Source: an uncultured Lysobacteraceae bacterium (GTDB lineage Bacteria > Pseudomonadota > Gammaproteobacteria > Xanthomonadales > Rhodanobacteraceae). From it: a stretch of DNA of 15,239 nucleotides. Below, piece after piece: positions 2,803-10,617 of this stretch. The stretch is taken from positions 1-15,239 of the forward strand of contig CAMLLF010000019.1 of NCBI GenBank assembly GCA_946480705.1, in the 5' to 3' direction. The position numbers were made by a program, and so were the translations under genes. Every line of letters begins with the position of its first letter. Position 1 is the first letter of the stretch. The notes under the pieces were generated by a model. It made no database searches and had not been told where the DNA came from. It was given only the letters and a program-made list of their open reading frames with translations.

Positions 2803-5193
2803 TCAAAGCCCGTCGCGGCGCAGTGCTTCGACGACGCTGAGTTTCGCGGCGCTGCGCGCGGGCAGCAGGCAGGCGAGTACGGCGGCCGGCAGCAGCAGCG
2901 CGGCCCAGAGCAGGCTGCCGGCCGGCGACAGTCGCAGCGGCAGCGGCATGCCGGCGAGGTTGTCGAGCAGCGGCGCGATCGCCGCGGTCGCCGCGAGCGA
3001 CAGCGGCAGCGCGAGCGCAAGACTCAGCAGCGCGGCGCACACGGCTTCGTAGAGCACGCTGCGCAGGATCGTCGCCGGCGTCGCGCCGATCGCGGCGAGC
3101 ACGCCGAGTTCGCGGCGCCGGTCGATGACGGCCGCGCTCGCGGCCGCCGCGAGTCCGGCGAGTCCGACGACGGCCATGATCACGGCGACCGCGCGCAGCA
3201 CGAGCAGCAGGATGCCCAGGTGCGCCCATTGGCTTTCGCCGACGTCGGCATTGTCGATCACGGCGGAGACGGCGATGCCGGCGCCTTCGAGCGTCTTCCG
3301 CACGATGGCGGCGTCGCCGGCGCGACCGTCGCGGTACGCAAGCCGCAGCGACGACACCGCCGTGGCGTCGCCGGGCGCGGCGAGCGCGTAGGCGCCGGGC
3401 GTCGTGTAGATCGACGCACCTGCCATGACTTCGCGTGCGATGCCGACGACCTGCGCGCGCAGATGGCCGTCGGGGCCGCGCAGGTCGAGCCAGTCGCCGA
3501 CGCGCGTGCCGGCGAAGGTCGTCGATGCGGCGACGCTGTTGAGCACGATCGCGTGCGTGTCGCCGGTCGCGAGCCAGCGGCCCTCGGTGATCGGCAGTGC
3601 GAGGAAGTCCGAACCGTCCGGCACGGCGCGCAGACGCACCGCGCCGTGACCGCCGTCGGCATGGGCGCCGGTCACGAACAGCGCGTCGCCGTCGTTGGCC
3701 GCGACCATCGTTGACGGCCAGCTTTCGACGGCACGCAGCCCCGGCACGCCGGCCAGCGCGCGTCGCACCGCGGCGCTGTCGACCGGTTCCTGCAGCGCGA
3801 TGCGCTGCTGGAAATTCCATTGCCGCGCGGCGTCGGCCATGACCGCGTACCAGCCGCTGCGCAGGTTCGCATTCGCGACGAACAGCGCGCCGGCCGCGCC
3901 GAGCAGCGCGAGGTTGAGCACGAGCCGCACGCGCCGCCGCCAGAGATTGCGCCAGGCCAGCGTCAGCGCCGGTGCGCCCGCAAAGCGCGCGGCGAACGCC
4001 GTGCGCTGCGCGTCGCGCGGACTGGCGATGCCGTGATCGTCGAGCGCCGCGCGCACCGGACGCCGCGCCGCGGCGAATACGGGAATCGCGGCGGCGAGGA
4101 CCGGCAGCGCGACGCCGGTCGCGAGCGACAGCAGCGACGGCGCGAGCGCGAGTCCGCGCGCGACGATGCGCAGGTTCAGATGCTGCGCGCTGTGCAGCGC
4201 GAGATGCAGTCCGGCGCCATAACCGAGGAACAGGCCGATCGCGCTCGCGACGAGCGCGAGGCCGGCGATCAGCGCGAGATAGGGCAGGGCGAGCATCCAC
4301 GGCGTCGCGCCGAGGCTCTGCTGGACCGCGATCGCGCGCGACTGCTGCGCGAGCAGGCCGCCGACGACCGCGGCGCAGAGCACCGCGGCGAGCACGACCG
4401 CGAGCACGCCGAATGCGAGCAGCAGGCGCAGCGCCGCCTGCATCTGGGTTTCGTGCGGATGCAGGCCCGGCGGCGGAATGCGCACTTCGCGCACGGCGTG
4501 GCCCTGCGCGACGAGCTGCCGCGCGACGCCGGTCGCGCAGTCGCGGATCACCGCGACGGTCGGGGCGCCGGAACAGCGCAACAGCAGCCAGTCGGGCGCG
4601 GCATCGATGCCGAGCGCGGCGGCCGTCGAGAACGAGGTGTAGGCGTAGACCACGCCTTCCTGCGACGCAGGTGCGAGCGCCGCATCGTGCACGACGCCGG
4701 CGTGACGCAGTGTCGCGCGGCGCTCGCCGTCGAGCAGCAGGCCGAACTCGGCACCGGCATCGAGGCCGAGCACGCCGCGCGCGCTGCGTTCGATCAGCAC
4801 GCCGTTGCCGCCGGGCGGCCAGGTGCCGTCGCGCAGGTCGAACGTCGAGATCTCCGGCAGCGATTCGCCGCGGATATACAGCAGCAGCGGCCGCGTGCGT
4901 CCGTTCGCCGCGACGACGCGGCCGCTCGCGTGCGCGATCAGGTCGGCGCCGGCGACACTGGGCATCGCGCGCACGGCGGCGAGCACCGGCGCGTCGAGCC
5001 GTTCCACGCGCAGTTGCGCCGACGCCGCACGCGTCGCGGCGAAATTCGCCTGCATGCTGCGGGTAAGCGTGTCGCGCGCCGACAGCAGCGCGGTCAGGGC
5101 CGTCATCGCGAGCGCGAGCGCGGCGACGAGCAGCACGAAGCGGTCGCGCGCGAACCGGAATTCGCGCCAGATCTTGCGCCAGCGCGTGCTCAT
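2803..5193 (-). CDS. ABC transporter permease with two FtsX cores
   Basis: 796-residue inner-membrane protein. Predicted membrane segments lie near residues 18-38, 255-282, 300-323, 350-374, 422-440, 657-689, 715-740 and 758-778. This is the duplicated FtsX arrangement: anchor helix, about 215-residue periplasmic domain, three-helix core, then the same again. Core signatures are readable: QSLGATP (292-298) in the first half, RRRELGVLAAIGATP (692-706) and LPARSAAKLSVVEALR (777-792) in the second. Such permeases belong to the LolCDE/MacB mechanotransmission group, which drives lipoproteins, toxins or peptides across the envelope without a classical pore. Its ATG overlaps the stop of the upstream ATPase gene by four bases (ATGA at 5190-5193), so the two are translationally coupled. 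The reading frame stays open upstream through the whole ATPase gene, but that stretch translates as low-complexity Arg/Ala sequence and is not coding. The substrate is unknown. Confidence 0.93.
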   Translation of the reverse strand: MSTRWRKIWREFRFARDRFVLLVAALALAMTALTALLSARDTLTRSMQANFAATRAASAQLRVERLDAPVLAAVRAMPSVAGADLIAHASGRVVAANGRTRPLLLYIRGESLPEISTFDLRDGTWPPGGNGVLIERSARGVLGLDAGAEFGLLLDGERRATLRHAGVVHDAALAPASQEGVVYAYTSFSTAAALGIDAAPDWLLLRCSGAPTVAVIRDCATGVARQLVAQGHAVREVRIPPPGLHPHETQMQAALRLLLAFGVLAVVLAAVLCAAVVGGLLAQQSRAIAVQQSLGATPWMLALPYLALIAGLALVASAIGLFLGYGAGLHLALHSAQHLNLRIVARGLALAPSLLSLATGVALPVLAAAIPVFAAARRPVRAALDDHGIASPRDAQRTAFAARFAGAPALTLAWRNLWRRRVRLVLNLALLGAAGALFVANANLRSGWYAVMADAARQWNFQQRIALQEPVDSAAVRRALAGVPGLRAVESWPSTMVAANDGDALFVTGAHADGGHGAVRLRAVPDGSDFLALPITEGRWLATGDTHAIVLNSVAASTTFAGTRVGDWLDLRGPDGHLRAQVVGIAREVMAGASIYTTPGAYALAAPGDATAVSSLRLAYRDGRAGDAAIVRKTLEGAGIAVSAVIDNADVGESQWAHLGILLLVLRAVAVIMAVVGLAGLAAAASAAVIDRRRELGVLAAIGATPATILRSVLYEAVCAALLSLALALPLSLAATAAIAPLLDNLAGMPLPLRLSPAGSLLWAALLLPAAVLACLLPARSAAKLSVVEALRRDGL

Positions 5194-5888
5194 GCGCGCG
5201 CGCCGCTGTCGTCGGCGATGCGGCCGTCGCGCAGGGTCACGACGCGCGCGAAATGCGCGGCGATGTCGCGCTCGTGACTGACCGTGATCACGGTCTTGCC
5301 GTCGCGTGCGAGGCCGGCGAGCAGGGCGAGCGCGCGCGCCGAGTTCTCGCTGTCGAGGTTGCCGGTCGGTTCGTCGGCGATCACGAGCGGCGGGTCGTTG
5401 GCGAGCGCGCGGGCGATCGCCGCGCGCTGCTGCTGGCCGCCCGAGAGCTGCTGCGGCAGGCGCGCGCCTTCGCCGGCGATGTCGAGGCGTTCGAGCAGCG
5501 CGTCGGCGCGTGCGCGGCGCTGCGCGCGCGGCACGACGCCGGCGAAGTCCATCGCGAGCAGGATGTTCTCGTGCACGGTCAGGCTCGGCAGCAGCTGGAA
5601 GAACTGGAACACGATACCGACCTCGCGGCCGCGCCAGCGCGCGAGCTGCGCGGTGGACAGCGTGCCGAGTTCGACCTCGCCCATGTGCACGCTGCCGTCG
5701 TCGGGCCGGTCGAGGCCGGCGAGCAGGTTCACGAGCGTGGTCTTGCCGCTGCCCGAGCGGCCGACGATCGCGACGCTCTCGCCGCGCGCGATGTCGAGGT
5801 CGACGCGGTCGAGCGCGGTGCAGCCCGCGGCGGCTTCGCCGTAGCGCCGCGAGACGTTGCGCAGTCGGATCAGGGAATCGGACGCCAT
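5190..5888 (-). CDS. ABC transporter ATPase, LolD/MacB type
   Basis: 232-residue cytoplasmic ATPase partner of the FtsX-type permease. All nucleotide-binding motifs are intact: Walker [10 protein letters not shown] (43-51), Q-loop Q95 in FQFFQLLP, signature LSGGQQQR (148-155), Walker B LVIADEP (168-174) followed by TGNLDS, and H-loop H205 in VSHE. The [15 protein letters not shown] segment and the TGNLD motif are typical of the LolD/MacB/YbbA group. The ATG at 5888 is preferred because an AGG Shine-Dalgarno lies just upstream and the protein then begins [16 protein letters not shown], the usual first strand. Longer in-frame starts at 5975 and 5954 would add a tail with no family match. It is first in a two-gene operon and divergent from a TetR gene 116 bases away. 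Confidence 0.95.
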
Positions 5889-6004
5889 CGGTGCCTGCCG
5901 GTTGTTCGCGGGTTCGGGCCGCGACGATACTGCGCCCCGCACGCGCTGCAGCATCGGCGCGGCGCTGTCCGACATTTCGATCGCGTTTGTTCGGGATCCC
6001 GCTC

Positions 6005-6719: not shown

Positions 6720-8630
6720 TCACCGCGCCGCGTTCGAATTCATCGTCGCATTGCGTGAGGAGTCGTTGTACTGCGCCGGATCGCGCATGCCGCTGGTGTG
6801 GCACTGGCCGCTCGTGTGTCCGCGGTTGACGCCGCCGCTGAGCTGGCCGTTGGCCTGCTCGGTCGTGCCGTCTTCGGGATCGCTGAGCACGAGGTCGGTC
6901 GCGATCTGGCAGTAGTCGTTCGTCCACCAGTTCGTCGTGCGGAACGCGGTCGTGTAGTAGTTCACCTTGGCGCGCGACGCGGTCGGGATGCCGGCGAGCC
7001 ACGCGGATGCGCCGCTGTAGCTCAGGTTGTCGTTCGTGCCGCAGCCGACGCCGAACCACGAGCCGAGCGTGGCGAGGATGCCGGCGAGGTTCGTGCCCTT
7101 GTACGGCGTGCCGACGGACTGGATCAGGCGTGCGCCGGTCGCGTTGTCGAGTCCGCTCCAGTAATAGGTATACAAGTGCAGGGATGCCGCGCCGCCCTGG
7201 CTGTGGGCGACCGTGCCGAACGAGTTCCAGGTGCTGCCGAAAGTCTGCAGCAGGCGCGCGAACGCATCGTGGCTGCGGTTCTTGTTGACGTCGAGGAAGG
7301 TCGACGCGGTCGAGAACTGCGAGGCCGGCCAGACGCCGCCGGAGCAGTAGCCGTGCACGAGGATCAGGCGCTGGCCGACGCCCTTGGTCGCCTCGCCGCC
7401 GCTCGGGCGCGGGCCCATGCGCATGGCTTCGTCGATGCCCTTGGGCGCGGCGCCGAGCAGGCGGCGCGCGGGCAGGTCGAGCGCAAGCGTGCGCGCGCCG
7501 GCCAGCGTGACGAAATGATCGGGATCCTCGATGCGCAGTTCGCGCAGCTGATACGGCGGCTGCGCATCGGCGCGCGCGACCCAGCGCGGATCGAAGCCGA
7601 GGCCGAGTACGCCGTTCTTGTCCGGCGTGACCATGCCGCTGACCCAGGCGACCGGGCGTTCGTTGCCCTTGCCGTCGGTGCCCCAGACTTCGGCGTAGGC
7701 GCGATAGTGCTGGCCGGGCTTGTTCGCGACGGTCGGCAGGTCGATCGAGAGACGGCCGTCGGCCTGCGTGCGTGCCGATACGACCGATTCGATCGGCGAC
7801 AGGCGCAGCGAGGCATCGACGACGGGCAGCACGTGTTCGGCCGAGCGCACGACGCGCTGGCCGTTCGCGTTGGTGCCGTCGGCCAGGACCTGGGCGACGT
7901 AGGTGCCGCTCTGTTCGGCGATGAAGCCCGCGCCGAAGAGACCGTCGCCGGCCACGGCGTCGGCATGCAGGCCGTCGTCGAACATTGCGTAGCTGCTGAC
8001 CGCGCCGTCGGGCGCCGTCACGCGCAGCGTCGCCGAGGCGATGCGTGCGCCGCTCGCGCGCGCGCCGCCGAGCGTCGCGACGACGTCGAGCTGCTGGCCG
8101 ACGATCTGCCGGCGGTGCGCCGGATAGGACATGAGTTCGGTCGCCGTGTCGCCTTCGAGCAGCACGTAGCCGCTCTGCGAGCGGCTCGCACCGGCGTCGA
8201 TGCGCAGATTCCAGGTGCCGGTTTCCAGCGAATCGAGCGCGTAGTAGCTGGCCGGAACGCGCGCTTCTTCGAACGCGAAATCGGCCGAACGCGCGCCGGT
8301 GCTGAGTTCCTGCGCCGGAATGCGGCGGCCGGTCGGCGACTGCAGCTCGAGCAGCCAGTCGCTGTTGTTGCCCGAGAACACGAGGAAGCGGACCTTGCCG
8401 TTCTCGACCGGCAGCACGTGCTGCCAGCCTGCGCCGCGTGTGTCCATCTGCACCGGGATCAGCGCGCTATGGGAAAAGATCGCCGCGTCGGCCGGATCGG
8501 GGACGCGCATTTGCGTGAATTCTTCCGGAGGCCCGGACAGTTGCTTGGGAATGGGATTGGCGAGCACCGCGAGCGGTGCGGCGAGCAGCAAGGACGAAAC
8601 GACGGCCAACGTCAGGGGACTTCTGGTCAC
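6720..8630 (-). CDS. Secreted alpha/beta hydrolase with choice-of-anchor-X-like N-terminus (conditioned medium factor-like)
   Basis: 636 residues. A signal peptide (1-24, cut near VLA-NP) leads into a beta-rich region, 50-165, with FLVFSGNNSDWLLELQSPTG, like the choice-of-anchor X domain. Further beta-sandwich sequence follows, with DDGLHADAVAGDGLFGAGF (218-236), a calcium/Ig-type pattern. The C-terminal part (about 418-636) is an alpha/beta hydrolase: LILVHGYCSGG (422-432) for the oxyanion region, nucleophile S477 in AHSQGG (first Gly of GxSxG replaced by Ala), candidate acid D584 or D587, and candidate catalytic H605 or H611. Such proteins are predicted lipases/esterases or extracellular signalling factors; the substrate is not readable. 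The start is a GTG, supported by GGGAGGG (8637-8643) six bases upstream and by the signal peptide. It is divergent from the M36-like gene at 8984, another secreted protein. Confidence 0.88.
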   Translation of the reverse strand: MTRSPLTLAVVSSLLLAAPLAVLANPIPKQLSGPPEEFTQMRVPDPADAAIFSHSALIPVQMDTRGAGWQHVLPVENGKVRFLVFSGNNSDWLLELQSPTGRRIPAQELSTGARSADFAFEEARVPASYYALDSLETGTWNLRIDAGASRSQSGYVLLEGDTATELMSYPAHRRQIVGQQLDVVATLGGARASGARIASATLRVTAPDGAVSSYAMFDDGLHADAVAGDGLFGAGFIAEQSGTYVAQVLADGTNANGQRVVRSAEHVLPVVDASLRLSPIESVVSARTQADGRLSIDLPTVANKPGQHYRAYAEVWGTDGKGNERPVAWVSGMVTPDKNGVLGLGFDPRWVARADAQPPYQLRELRIEDPDHFVTLAGARTLALDLPARRLLGAAPKGIDEAMRMGPRPSGGEATKGVGQRLILVHGYCSGGVWPASQFSTASTFLDVNKNRSHDAFARLLQTFGSTWNSFGTVAHSQGGAASLHLYTYYWSGLDNATGARLIQSVGTPYKGTNLAGILATLGSWFGVGCGTNDNLSYSGASAWLAGIPTASRAKVNYYTTAFRTTNWWTNDYCQIATDLVLSDPEDGTTEQANGQLSGGVNRGHTSGQCHTSGMRDPAQYNDSSRNATMNSNAAR

Positions 8631-8983
8631 GGTTTTCCCTCCCAGGAACTGTGAGCTCGTGGATTAGTGCTGGTTCTTGCGGTATTCCCCGAATGGATCG
8701 ACACCCTCCGCGAGCCGGAGGGGAACCGGCACGATATCCAAACGAACGTTCGATGCACGCCGCAGCGCAGCAAGCGCGCCGCGGCAGAAGCGGCTGAGAC
8801 CGCTACGAGCCGATGTCGCTGGCCGACCCCGAACCGCGTTGGTGTTGCCAGGAAGCGCATCGCGCGATGACGCGCGCAGGGCTCGCGATCCGATCGCCGC
8901 GCCGGCGTCGCGGCACTCGGCGCTGCGCTTTGACGTACTCAGTCAGGCTCATGTCGGACGTGCGACCGGGGAGGGTCACGAAC
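8631..8983. other. 353-base divergent intergenic region between two secreted-protein genes
   Basis: No gene is supported here; open frames crossing it have no family character and no better start. It holds the two ribosome binding sites (8637-8643 minus, 8968-8975 plus), a 7-bp hairpin CCCTCCG (8704-8710) / CGGAGGG (8716-8722), a 10-bp palindrome CGAACGTTCG (8743-8752), and a -35-like TTGACG at 8930-8935 without a good -10 partner. Promoters for both genes must lie here, but I cannot place them. Confidence 0.5.
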
Positions 8984-10252
8984 ATGCCGTACATCACTGC
9001 ACGACAGCCGGCGGCGGGCATTGCGCTCGCGCTGCTGGCATCGGTGGGCGCGCAGGCCGCGAGCTACCGCGTGTTTCCTGTGCCTGTCGCGAGCCCGGAC
9101 CACGGCGCGCGCGTGCTGGCGACCAACCCGCACCAGCTCGACGCATCGCCGTTCGGCTGGCACGACACGAACGGCGTGGCCGGGGCCGAGTTCACGACCC
9201 TTCGCGGCAACAACGTAACGGTCTACACGGACATCGACGCCAACAATGCGTCGGACGGGCCCGGGCCGGACGGCGGTGCGGGACTGCTGTTCGACTTCGC
9301 GTGGTCGCCGGCGAATCCGCCCTCGTCGTACAAGGAGGCGCTCGCGACCAACGCGTTCTACTGGGCCAACATGCTGCACGACATCTTCTGGCGCCACGGT
9401 TTCAACGAGGCGGCGAGAAACATGCAGGCGAACAACTACGGCCGCGGCGGCGTGGGCAACGACCCGCTGATCGTCGAGATCATGGACGGCAGCGGCATCA
9501 ACAACGCGAACGGCTCGTCGACGGCCGACGGCGTCAGTCCGCGTATCCAGTTATACGAGTGGAACGCTACCTCGCCGCGCCGCGAGGGCAGCTTCGATGC
9601 GACGACGTTCCTGTATGCCTACGGGATGGTGCTCCACGCGCGCATCGCCGGCACCAGCTGCAACGGCAATGCGGAGCGGCCGGCCAGCGGCTACAACGAC
9701 TTTTTCGGAATTCTGCTGACGACGAACTTCGCGCATGCGACGCCGACTCAGCCGCGCGGGCTCGGCACGTATGTGCTTGGCCAGCCGGTCAACGGCACCG
9801 GCATTCGCACGGCGCCGTACACGACGGATTTCGCGTTGAACCGCTACACCTACAACGACACGCGCACGCTGGCCGTGCCGCACGGCGTCGGTTTCGTCTG
9901 GGCGTCGATGCTGTGGGAGGTGACCTGGGGCATGGTCGCCCGGCACGGCGCCAGCAACGACTGGTTCAACGGCAACGGCGCGGAAAACCGCATGCTGCGC
10001 CTCGCGATCCGCGCCATGCAGCTGCAGCCCTGCCAGTCCGGCTTCGTCGATGCGCGCACGGCGTGGCTGGCCGCCGACGACGAACTCTATGCGGGCGAAA
10101 ACCGCTGCATTCTCTGGCGCGGATTCGCGCGGCGCGGTCTCGGCGCATCGGCCGTGCAGGGCTCGGCCGGCAGCAACAGCGACAACACCGAAGCGTTCGA
10201 TCTGCCCGCCGACTGCGCCGATCTGATTTTCGACGCCGATTTCGATCCCTGA
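8984..10252 (+). CDS. Secreted fungalysin (M36)-fold protein lacking the zinc site, probable pseudopeptidase
   Basis: 422 residues: signal peptide 1-26 (GAQAA cut), then the mature M36 domain without the long FTP propeptide usual in the family. Hallmarks are intact: SYRVFPVPVASPDHG (27-41), SPFGWHDTNGVAG (55-67), TNAFYWANMLHD (122-133), NNYGRGGVGNDP (150-161), MDGSGINNAN (167-176), and the C-terminal core WASMLWEVTWGMVARHG to FARRGLGASAVQGS (306-394). The zinc-binding helix expected as HEYxHG reads YAYGMV (211-216). The third-ligand motif expected as GEGWSDF reads ASGYNDF (234-240). So both zinc histidines, the catalytic Glu and the third ligand are all gone, by substitution and without a frameshift. 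It cannot act as a normal M36 protease; a binding or decoy role, or early decay, are the options. It ends with an acidic tail, LIFDADFDP. ATG 8984 is chosen for GGGGAGGG (8968-8975) and the signal peptide over an in-frame ATG at 8813. Confidence 0.85.
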   Translation: MPYITARQPAAGIALALLASVGAQAASYRVFPVPVASPDHGARVLATNPHQLDASPFGWHDTNGVAGAEFTTLRGNNVTVYTDIDANNASDGPGPDGGAGLLFDFAWSPANPPSSYKEALATNAFYWANMLHDIFWRHGFNEAARNMQANNYGRGGVGNDPLIVEIMDGSGINNANGSSTADGVSPRIQLYEWNATSPRREGSFDATTFLYAYGMVLHARIAGTSCNGNAERPASGYNDFFGILLTTNFAHATPTQPRGLGTYVLGQPVNGTGIRTAPYTTDFALNRYTYNDTRTLAVPHGVGFVWASMLWEVTWGMVARHGASNDWFNGNGAENRMLRLAIRAMQLQPCQSGFVDARTAWLAADDELYAGENRCILWRGFARRGLGASAVQGSAGSNSDNTEAFDLPADCADLIFDADFDP

Positions 10253-10255
10253 ACA

Positions 10256-10617
10256 GCGACGAATGCGTTCTACTGGGCCAACATGGCCCACGACATTTTT
10301 CTATCGCCACGGGTCGCGCGGCGCGGCGCCGGCGGCGACTGGTTCGACGGCAACGGCGCGGAGAACCGCCCGCTGCGCCTGGCCATTCGTGCGATGCAGC
10401 GGCAGCCCTGCGAGGCGGGCTTCATCGACGCGCGCACCGCGTCGTTCGCTGCCGACATCGAACTCCCTGACGGCGAGAACCGCTGCATCCTCCGGCGAGG
10501 ATTCGCGCGGCGCGGTCCCGGCGTGTCGGCCGTGCAGGGTTCGACTGCGAGCAACACCGACAACACCGGCGCGTTCGACGCGCCGGAGGACTGCAACGAT
10601 CCGATCGTCGAGGACGG
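10256..10617 (+). pseudogene. Decayed, internally deleted tandem copy of the M36-like gene
   Basis: Starting four bases after the upstream TGA, in the same reading frame, the sequence encodes ATNAFYWANMAHDIF, equal to residues 121-135 of the preceding gene. A +1 base insertion (GACATTTTTCTATCGCCAC against GACATCTTCTGGCGCCAC) and a deletion of roughly 180 codons follow. It resumes as VARRGAGGDWFDGNGAEN, equal to residues 318-335, and continues to DNTGAFDAPEDC. From DWF to DC, 66 of 86 residues match the upstream copy by hand count. Conserved tryptophans are replaced by R and S, as expected of decay. It ends in IVEDGSE, which looks like an altered IF-DGFE tail. It has no start signal of its own, no signal peptide and no zinc-site region. 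The open frame continues to 10738 across the end of the convergent beta-lactamase gene, but that extension is shadow sequence. Confidence 0.8.

Follow-up and report, generated by a model that had tools for sequence, protein, structure and literature searches.

The gene at positions 8984 to 10,252 of a 15,239-nt stretch of DNA—hereafter called the window, to whose full length all positions refer—encodes a secreted-looking protein of the M36 (fungalysin) fold in which every residue of the catalytic zinc site is replaced. Homologues with the same loss form a clade of their own, here called clade A, and the protein is very likely a dead enzyme retained for another job and not the product of a decaying gene. 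Probably, it is a conserved secreted pseudopeptidase that acts by binding, and we infer from the pattern of conserved and relaxed columns that this binding uses a surface other than the old cleft.

The gene lies on the plus strand—as do all features described here, unless noted otherwise—and encodes 422 amino acids plus stop. The Pfam family PF02128 (Peptidase_M36) covers residues 27 to 390 and is matched over its entire profile (1–368 of 368; E 2e-105) with 353.5 bits against a gathering cut-off of 23.3, which places the protein in the M36 fold. Since the match is full length, the reading frame is intact, and the predicted model shows the three-dimensional fold of the M36 catalytic domain with a pLDDT (predicted local distance difference test) of 87. 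A preliminary description of this DNA had proposed substitution within an intact frame, and this proposal holds. Likewise borne out are the good ribosome binding site it had noticed, as a plausible GGAGGG at 8970 to 8975 stands 8 nt upstream of the ATG (read from the sequence), and the signal-peptide-like N-terminus, which comprises residues 1 to 25 (8984–9058) by alignment. An alternative in-frame ATG at 8813 would yield a 479-aa reading; the start at 8984 is preferred, as it fits both the signal peptide and the usual lengths within the clade.

Zinc is bound in M36 enzymes by both His of HExxH together with the Glu of ExxxD, and for Mpr1, a fungal M36 protein, mutation of the conserved residues at both motifs is reported to abolish proteolysis (PMC6117016). 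In the window protein, the position of HEYxHG reads YAYGMV (residues 211–216; 9614–9631) and that of GEGWSDF reads ASGYNDF (residues 234–240; 9683–9703), with letters and coordinates as first described. Alignment with 182 homologues—the distinct proteins among the matches listed, to which all homologue counts refer—shows that the zinc quartet H, E, H, E has been replaced by Y211, A212, M215, and S235. Hereby, the first His, the catalytic Glu, and the second His of HExxH are lost to a sequence that reads YAYGM, and the third-ligand Glu of GEGWSD is a Ser. The same four columns hold H, E, H, E in 119 of the 182 homologues. Inspection of these columns in the PF02128-based alignment, as the preliminary description had suggested, thus finds all four residues replaced, while D239, the Asp of ExxxD, is kept in the window and in all 51 clade A members. 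All 51 clade A proteins, that of the window among them, are also free of HExxH at any other position, so that an alternative HExxH serving as active site is rejected. A sequencing error is ruled out as well, since members of 51 separate protein clusters share the substituted zinc columns.

With all ligands lost, the product would bind no catalytic zinc and cleave no peptide bonds. Caution is advised by Mpr1 itself, for which the same study describes that replacement of the first His and the Glu alone left the cell-level function intact (PMC6117016); by analogy, partial loss would not suffice to call a protein dead, whereas here all four positions are replaced.

The zinc-less state is a property of a whole clade. 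Two homologue searches scored 7992 and 7996 candidates and found 355 and 2653, respectively, with 120 listed each. Trees were calculated from 110 rows (10 of the first 120 omitted) and from all 182, leaving out residues 206 to 245 and with them the zinc columns. Sixty-three of the 182 homologues carry another quartet than H, E, H, E: the 51 members of clade A, 11 of a second group called clade B, and the single protein P0106. Clade A occupies one side of a branch with all of its 51 members, supported by an SH-aLRT (Shimodaira–Hasegawa-like approximate likelihood ratio test) value of 100 in the 182-row tree and likewise in the 110-row tree. None of the four zinc-site residues is retained in 50 of the 51 members; P0040 retains the second His. 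In a profile search, all 49 full-length members score at least 633 bits and the next protein, whose site is intact, scores 524; in line with this gap, no site-intact member of clade A was seen among the 182 homologues listed. So far, the clade has been found in Lysobacterales (Tahibacter, Dokdonella, and relatives), and no description of a zinc-less bacterial M36 clade was found in the open-access literature.

Clade B (P0063, P0066, P0067, P0070, P0075, P0081, P0090, P0097, P0101, P0136, and P0152) is separate from clade A in the tree, with a support of 100 for nine rows in the 110-row tree and of 78 for all 11 rows in the 182-row tree. It resembles clade A in that the zinc quartet is lost in an otherwise good M36 domain; it differs in its substitutions, in the presence of PF13860 (FlgD_ig) in 11 of 11 members, and in the FTP propeptide carried by five of them (precomputed Pfam matches). 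P0106, with the quartet H, L, H, E, has only its catalytic Glu exchanged for Leu, keeps both His and the third Glu, and sits near clade B in a set with three intact proteins in the 182-row tree. With this second zinc-less clade, the sampled tree shows at least two losses of the zinc site.

Where constraint was kept and where it was given up can be read from the alignment columns, for which 49 of the 51 clade A members were used, without the fragments P0109 and P0116. Conservation among the 119 intact relatives reaches at least 97% in 65 of the 383 columns that can be compared; at 48 of these, at least 90% of the clade A members retain the residue of the intact set. Nine of the 65 reach an entropy of at least 1.5 bits in clade A, and all nine lie within residues 211 to 238—that is, nine of the 12 columns in this region are strongly relaxed versus none of 53 elsewhere (Fisher p 7e-9). 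The mean column entropy is about equal in clade A and the intact set (1.22 and 1.30 bits), with the 119 intact proteins spanning more taxa. Lowering the threshold to 90% admits 127 columns, of which 24 are relaxed; among these are 179, 180, 187, 188, 189, and His300. Relaxation is also seen away from the cleft motifs, in columns 352, 356, and 361. The five columns from 179 to 189 belong to the counterpart of the edge strand at residues 173 to 190 (NNANGSSTADGVSPRIQL; 9500–9553), which we presume to bind substrate by analogy with thermolysin. His300 (9881–9883), which we take to be the transition-state His, is present in the window and in 35 of the 49 clade A members.

As the presumed substrate strand and the presumed transition-state His have lost constraint, a preserved peptide cleft is argued against, and the earlier suggestion that the scaffold binds a peptide in its old cleft is weakened. 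A surface outside the cleft is preferred, since it is in the cleft that columns have been released from constraint. Thirteen residues are fixed in clade A and differ from the intact relatives: L73, V80, L120, A124, I134, H138, S203, L244, D312, A323, S324, R336, and R339. In addition, E334 is clade specific in 43 of the 49 members, with Asp in the other six, and the window itself has E312 where the clade consensus is D312. Clade-specific residues in the helix at 113 to 137 are read as a repacking of the core, while those at residues 312 to 339 (9917–10,000), identified by column comparison, possibly form a new surface and make this region a candidate for interaction.

It is rather unlikely that the protein is a dead-enzyme decoy, whose old cleft would still bind peptides or protease inhibitors and thereby shield an active protease. 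Such a role would be in keeping with the preserved overall fold, many cleft-near glycines, R220, and D239, and with the active-looking M36 protein of Tahibacter caeni, which leaves the decoy some weight. Pseudopeptidases of other families also act by binding, with the M14 protein Ecm14 as one suggested case (PMC11241649). However, the 24 relaxed columns of 127 include precisely 179, 180, 187 to 189, and H300, and four of the five genomes with a close clade A match show no other M36 protein to be shielded; other protease families were not searched.

A zinc site rebuilt for a new catalytic activity, for example around the Tyr/Lys/Ser set in the closest sister group of the window protein, appears very improbable. 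Hereby, the letters at the former zinc site are informative. Position 211 is aromatic in 46 of the 49 full-length clade A members and all 49 have A, G, T, or S at position 212, which might be taken for a new pattern together with the quartet Y, G, K, S in 10 of the 49 and with Y211 and S235 common to the window and its nearest relatives. Yet position 215 ranges over Q, K, I, M, and S and position 235 over S, I, V, and F, the 49 members show 24 different quartets, and the window has Met where the sister group has Lys. We claim no shared new motif in place of HExxH. For the same reason—24 quartets in 49 proteins—the question raised earlier, whether the YAYGMV variant is conserved, has a divided answer: the exact letters are not, the absence of the zinc site is (51 of 51).

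The genomes in which clade A occurs bear on a role beside an active M36 protein. Among 197 genomes of the bacterial family, 16 have any match at E 1e-10 and five a close one (52–68% identity). T. caeni carries a second M36 frame of 1079 amino acids with an HExxH motif (HEWGHT), so that the zinc-less protein might there regulate an active M36 protein of the same cell or help it to fold. In four of the five genomes, however, whose completeness is unstated, no PF02128 match other than the zinc-less protein was found, which argues against a helper role and makes it very improbable. The preliminary description had also suggested another protease as binding partner; if this were an M36 protein of the same cell, it would be missing from four of the five genomes.

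Selection on the gene was assessed by the ratio of nonsynonymous to synonymous substitution rates (dN/dS), calculated by maximum likelihood (ML) and by the Nei–Gojobori method (NG86). The syntenic Dokdonella-type pair L003/L139, with the same neighbours and 86% amino acid identity over the compared codons, gives 0.17 (ML) and 0.21 (NG86) for the M36 gene, versus 0.035–0.139 (ML) and 0.073–0.189 (NG86) for its neighbours. Between the window and T. caeni, the M36 gene has a dN/dS of 0.10 (ML) and 0.37 (NG86), with an ML dS of 1.9 near saturation, and the three neighbour genes range from 0.046 to 0.113 (ML) and from 0.157 to 0.329 (NG86). The expectation of a dN/dS below 1 is thus confirmed. As judged from these sequence pairs, the M36 gene is under purifying selection that is slightly weaker than that on its neighbours; the constraint is real, not extreme. 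That the gene is an early pseudogene, no longer needed and decayed in its catalytic site, as had been considered at first, is extremely improbable and is rejected for clade A: the locus does lose copies, as seen from an internally deleted copy downstream (10,256–10,611), and the M36 protein diverges more quickly than the proteins encoded next to it (69% amino acid identity to T. caeni vs 79–91%), yet the zinc-less state is common to 51 clusters of one clade with a conserved remaining fold, dN/dS is 0.17–0.21 in the syntenic pair, and the frame is still open after about 30% amino acid divergence from T. caeni. The idea that the product is a secreted M36 scaffold, catalytically dead yet kept for a function, fares well on the same grounds, with 51 of 51 clade A members zinc-less and dN/dS below 1.

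Several observations weigh against the reading as a conserved secreted pseudopeptidase. The M36 gene has the highest NG86 dN/dS of the four genes compared with T. caeni and the highest dN/dS of the five genes in the L003/L139 pair. Furthermore, the distribution is sparse: four of the five genomes with close matches were preselected by homology, and the unbiased yield is a single genome (G113). The closest annotated members also bear the source name "M36 family metallopeptidase."

The loss of the zinc site is accompanied by the loss of the propeptide. At E 0.001, a match to the FTP propeptide PF07504 is seen in none of the 51 clade A proteins, and in all 51 at most 84 residues precede the mature domain; among the intact relatives, at least 172 residues do so in 88 of 119 and at most 125 in 31 of 119, some of which are perhaps truncated. 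In the alignment, residue 26 of the window protein falls on residue 246 of 4k90_A, where that chain begins, and on residue 1 of three other M36 structures; three of the M36 structures carry titles stating that the propeptide is absent. Residue 26 hence corresponds to the start of mature fungalysins, and the signal peptide is followed directly by the mature domain. The P-domain PF01483 is present at E 0.001 in 12 of the 51 clade A members, and 17 of 49 are about 600 amino acids long, with extra sequence beyond the tail segment described below.

For the preferred reading of a secreted pseudopeptidase that binds outside its old cleft, the following course can be proposed. At the base of clade A, and a single time, an M36 zymogen would have shed its propeptide along with the complete zinc site, in an order of events that we can only infer. 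Its signal peptide would now be joined straight to the mature domain, and the product would be exported and fold as an intact M36 domain, as predicted by the model (pLDDT 87). Outside the cytoplasm, it might serve as a binding or scaffold module through a non-cleft surface, possibly around residues 312 to 339. The branch of longer clade A proteins might act through the added P-domain.

A further element common to clade A is the C-terminal tail. A loose segment [ILV]Fxx[GND][FL][EDQNG] follows the domain in all 49 full-length members; it lies at most five residues from the end in 32 and ahead of a longer C-terminal part in 17. The strict form [ILV]FxxGF[EDQ] is found in 38 of the 49, the window protein not among them: its segment LIFDADFDP (10,223–10,249), predicted to be flexible, is a divergent copy of the clade's [IL]FxxGF[EDQ]. 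The C-terminus is thus intact, as assumed earlier, in that the segment matches that of clade A, though the window copy (IFDADFD) has diverged. The loose tail also occurs in seven of the 119 intact relatives (101 of which have tails of at least 20 residues), often as FxDGFESGD, and in none of the 11 clade B members; within five residues of the end, it is seen in one of the 119. Some M36 proteins from outside the order bear it as well. Specificity of the tail to clade A and its order is rejected on the basis of these seven relatives.

At the genome level, the DNA pattern for FxxGF[EDQH] plus stop—whose last triplet admits TGG as well as stops—has between 13 and 36 hits per genome in 10 genomes of the family, compared with 0 to 1 for the backwards and 0 to 1 for the permuted control. 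It is found at least 10 times in 39 of 101 genomes of the order (maximum 64; backwards control 0–3) and at most four times in a phylum sample of 149 genomes, T. caeni (13) excepted. All 30 fetched tail sites (L109–L138) end a reading frame, and, by a crude measure, nine of the 10 frames that are complete in the fetched stretch have a hydrophobic start resembling a signal peptide. No NCBIfam model for the tail matches the five clade A proteins tested, and no paper on an IFxxGFE-like tail was found in the open-access literature. Judged by these pattern counts, the tail is order enriched and not unique, which lowers the odds of a sorting signal; it may be a localisation signal or merely a common tail. 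Tentatively—and we regard this as doubtful—clade A could be a neofunctionalised, noncatalytic M36 family whose members are exported by Lysobacterales and displayed as binding modules; the IFxxGFE-like tail would then be a localisation signal not recognised so far, and the clade a counterpart of the M36 families that depend on the type 9 secretion system (T9SS), on rhombosortase, or on myxosortase.

These three families—NF038113 (T9SS dependent), NF038111 (rhombosortase dependent), and NF038112 (myxosortase dependent)—likewise contain secreted M36 domains and, of the NCBIfam models, give the highest scores with the five clade A proteins examined. All of these matches stay below the curated cut-offs; the window protein reaches 447.9, 160.6, and 131 bits versus 885, 1700, and 1500, respectively. 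The known C-terminal sorting domains were not found, and their place is taken by the IFxxGFE-like tail. From the fungalysins (MEROPS M36; 4k90 of Aspergillus, 7qfy, 7qp3, and 7z6t), the window protein differs by the absence of HExxH, of the third-ligand Glu, and of the FTP propeptide. MEROPS lists nonpeptidase homologues (PMC11241649). There is also a likeness to Ecm14 of Ascomycota, a conserved secreted-type pseudopeptidase of the zinc family M14 that is described as taking part in cell-wall maintenance (PMC11241649) and that differs in its unrelated fold and family and in being fungal.

For annotation, this means that the database names M36 metallopeptidase and elastinolytic proteinase are very probably wrong for all 51 clade A members seen. 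More generally, clade A may be regarded as a natural experiment, in which a constrained protease fold is combined with freely varying catalytic columns, so that residues that keep the fold are separated from those that keep the activity. In this clade, an M36 domain has very probably outlived its own propeptide.

The surroundings of the gene resemble those in T. caeni. Common to both is the order of an amidohydrolase gene, a DUF4785-type secreted protein gene (minus strand), the M36 gene (plus strand), and a gene of the metallo-β-lactamase (MBL) fold (minus strand), with identities of 89, 79, 69, and 77–79% in this order; by gene order and identities, the window hence stems from a Tahibacter-like bacterium. 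Directly downstream of the M36 gene, the second M36 copy at 10,256 to 10,611 aligns with this gene over 44 nt (86% identity) and a further 300 nt (81%), bears no signal peptide of its own, and misses a large central part. Its dN/dS in frame is 0.40 (NG86) and 0.18 (ML), and no such copy lies between the M36 and MBL genes of T. caeni. Six stretches were compared for neighbours—the window, L001, L003, L004, L139, and L140—by a crude picking of open reading frames that missed the M36 gene of L004. No clade-wide partner gene was found in these six; apart from the M36 gene itself, only the window with T. caeni and the two Dokdonella-type loci with each other were found to be linked, in addition to a weak MBL-like match in L140. 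Rfam gives no match at gathering scores within the window.

Two further regions of the window may be mentioned. The genes for an ATP-binding cassette (ABC) transporter ATPase and permease at 2806 to 5975 (minus strand) have no match in the 10.4-kb T. caeni stretch (L001), in which the amidohydrolase gene lies close to the DUF4785-type gene; this points to an insertion or a loss of the ABC genes between the two species. At 6723 to 8630 (minus strand), a secreted-looking protein of 636 amino acids is encoded that is 79% identical in T. caeni and matches DUF4785_3rd below threshold (20.6 bits vs a cut-off of 24.5); from its GHSQGG-type look, and without a family match, we take it to be lipase-like.
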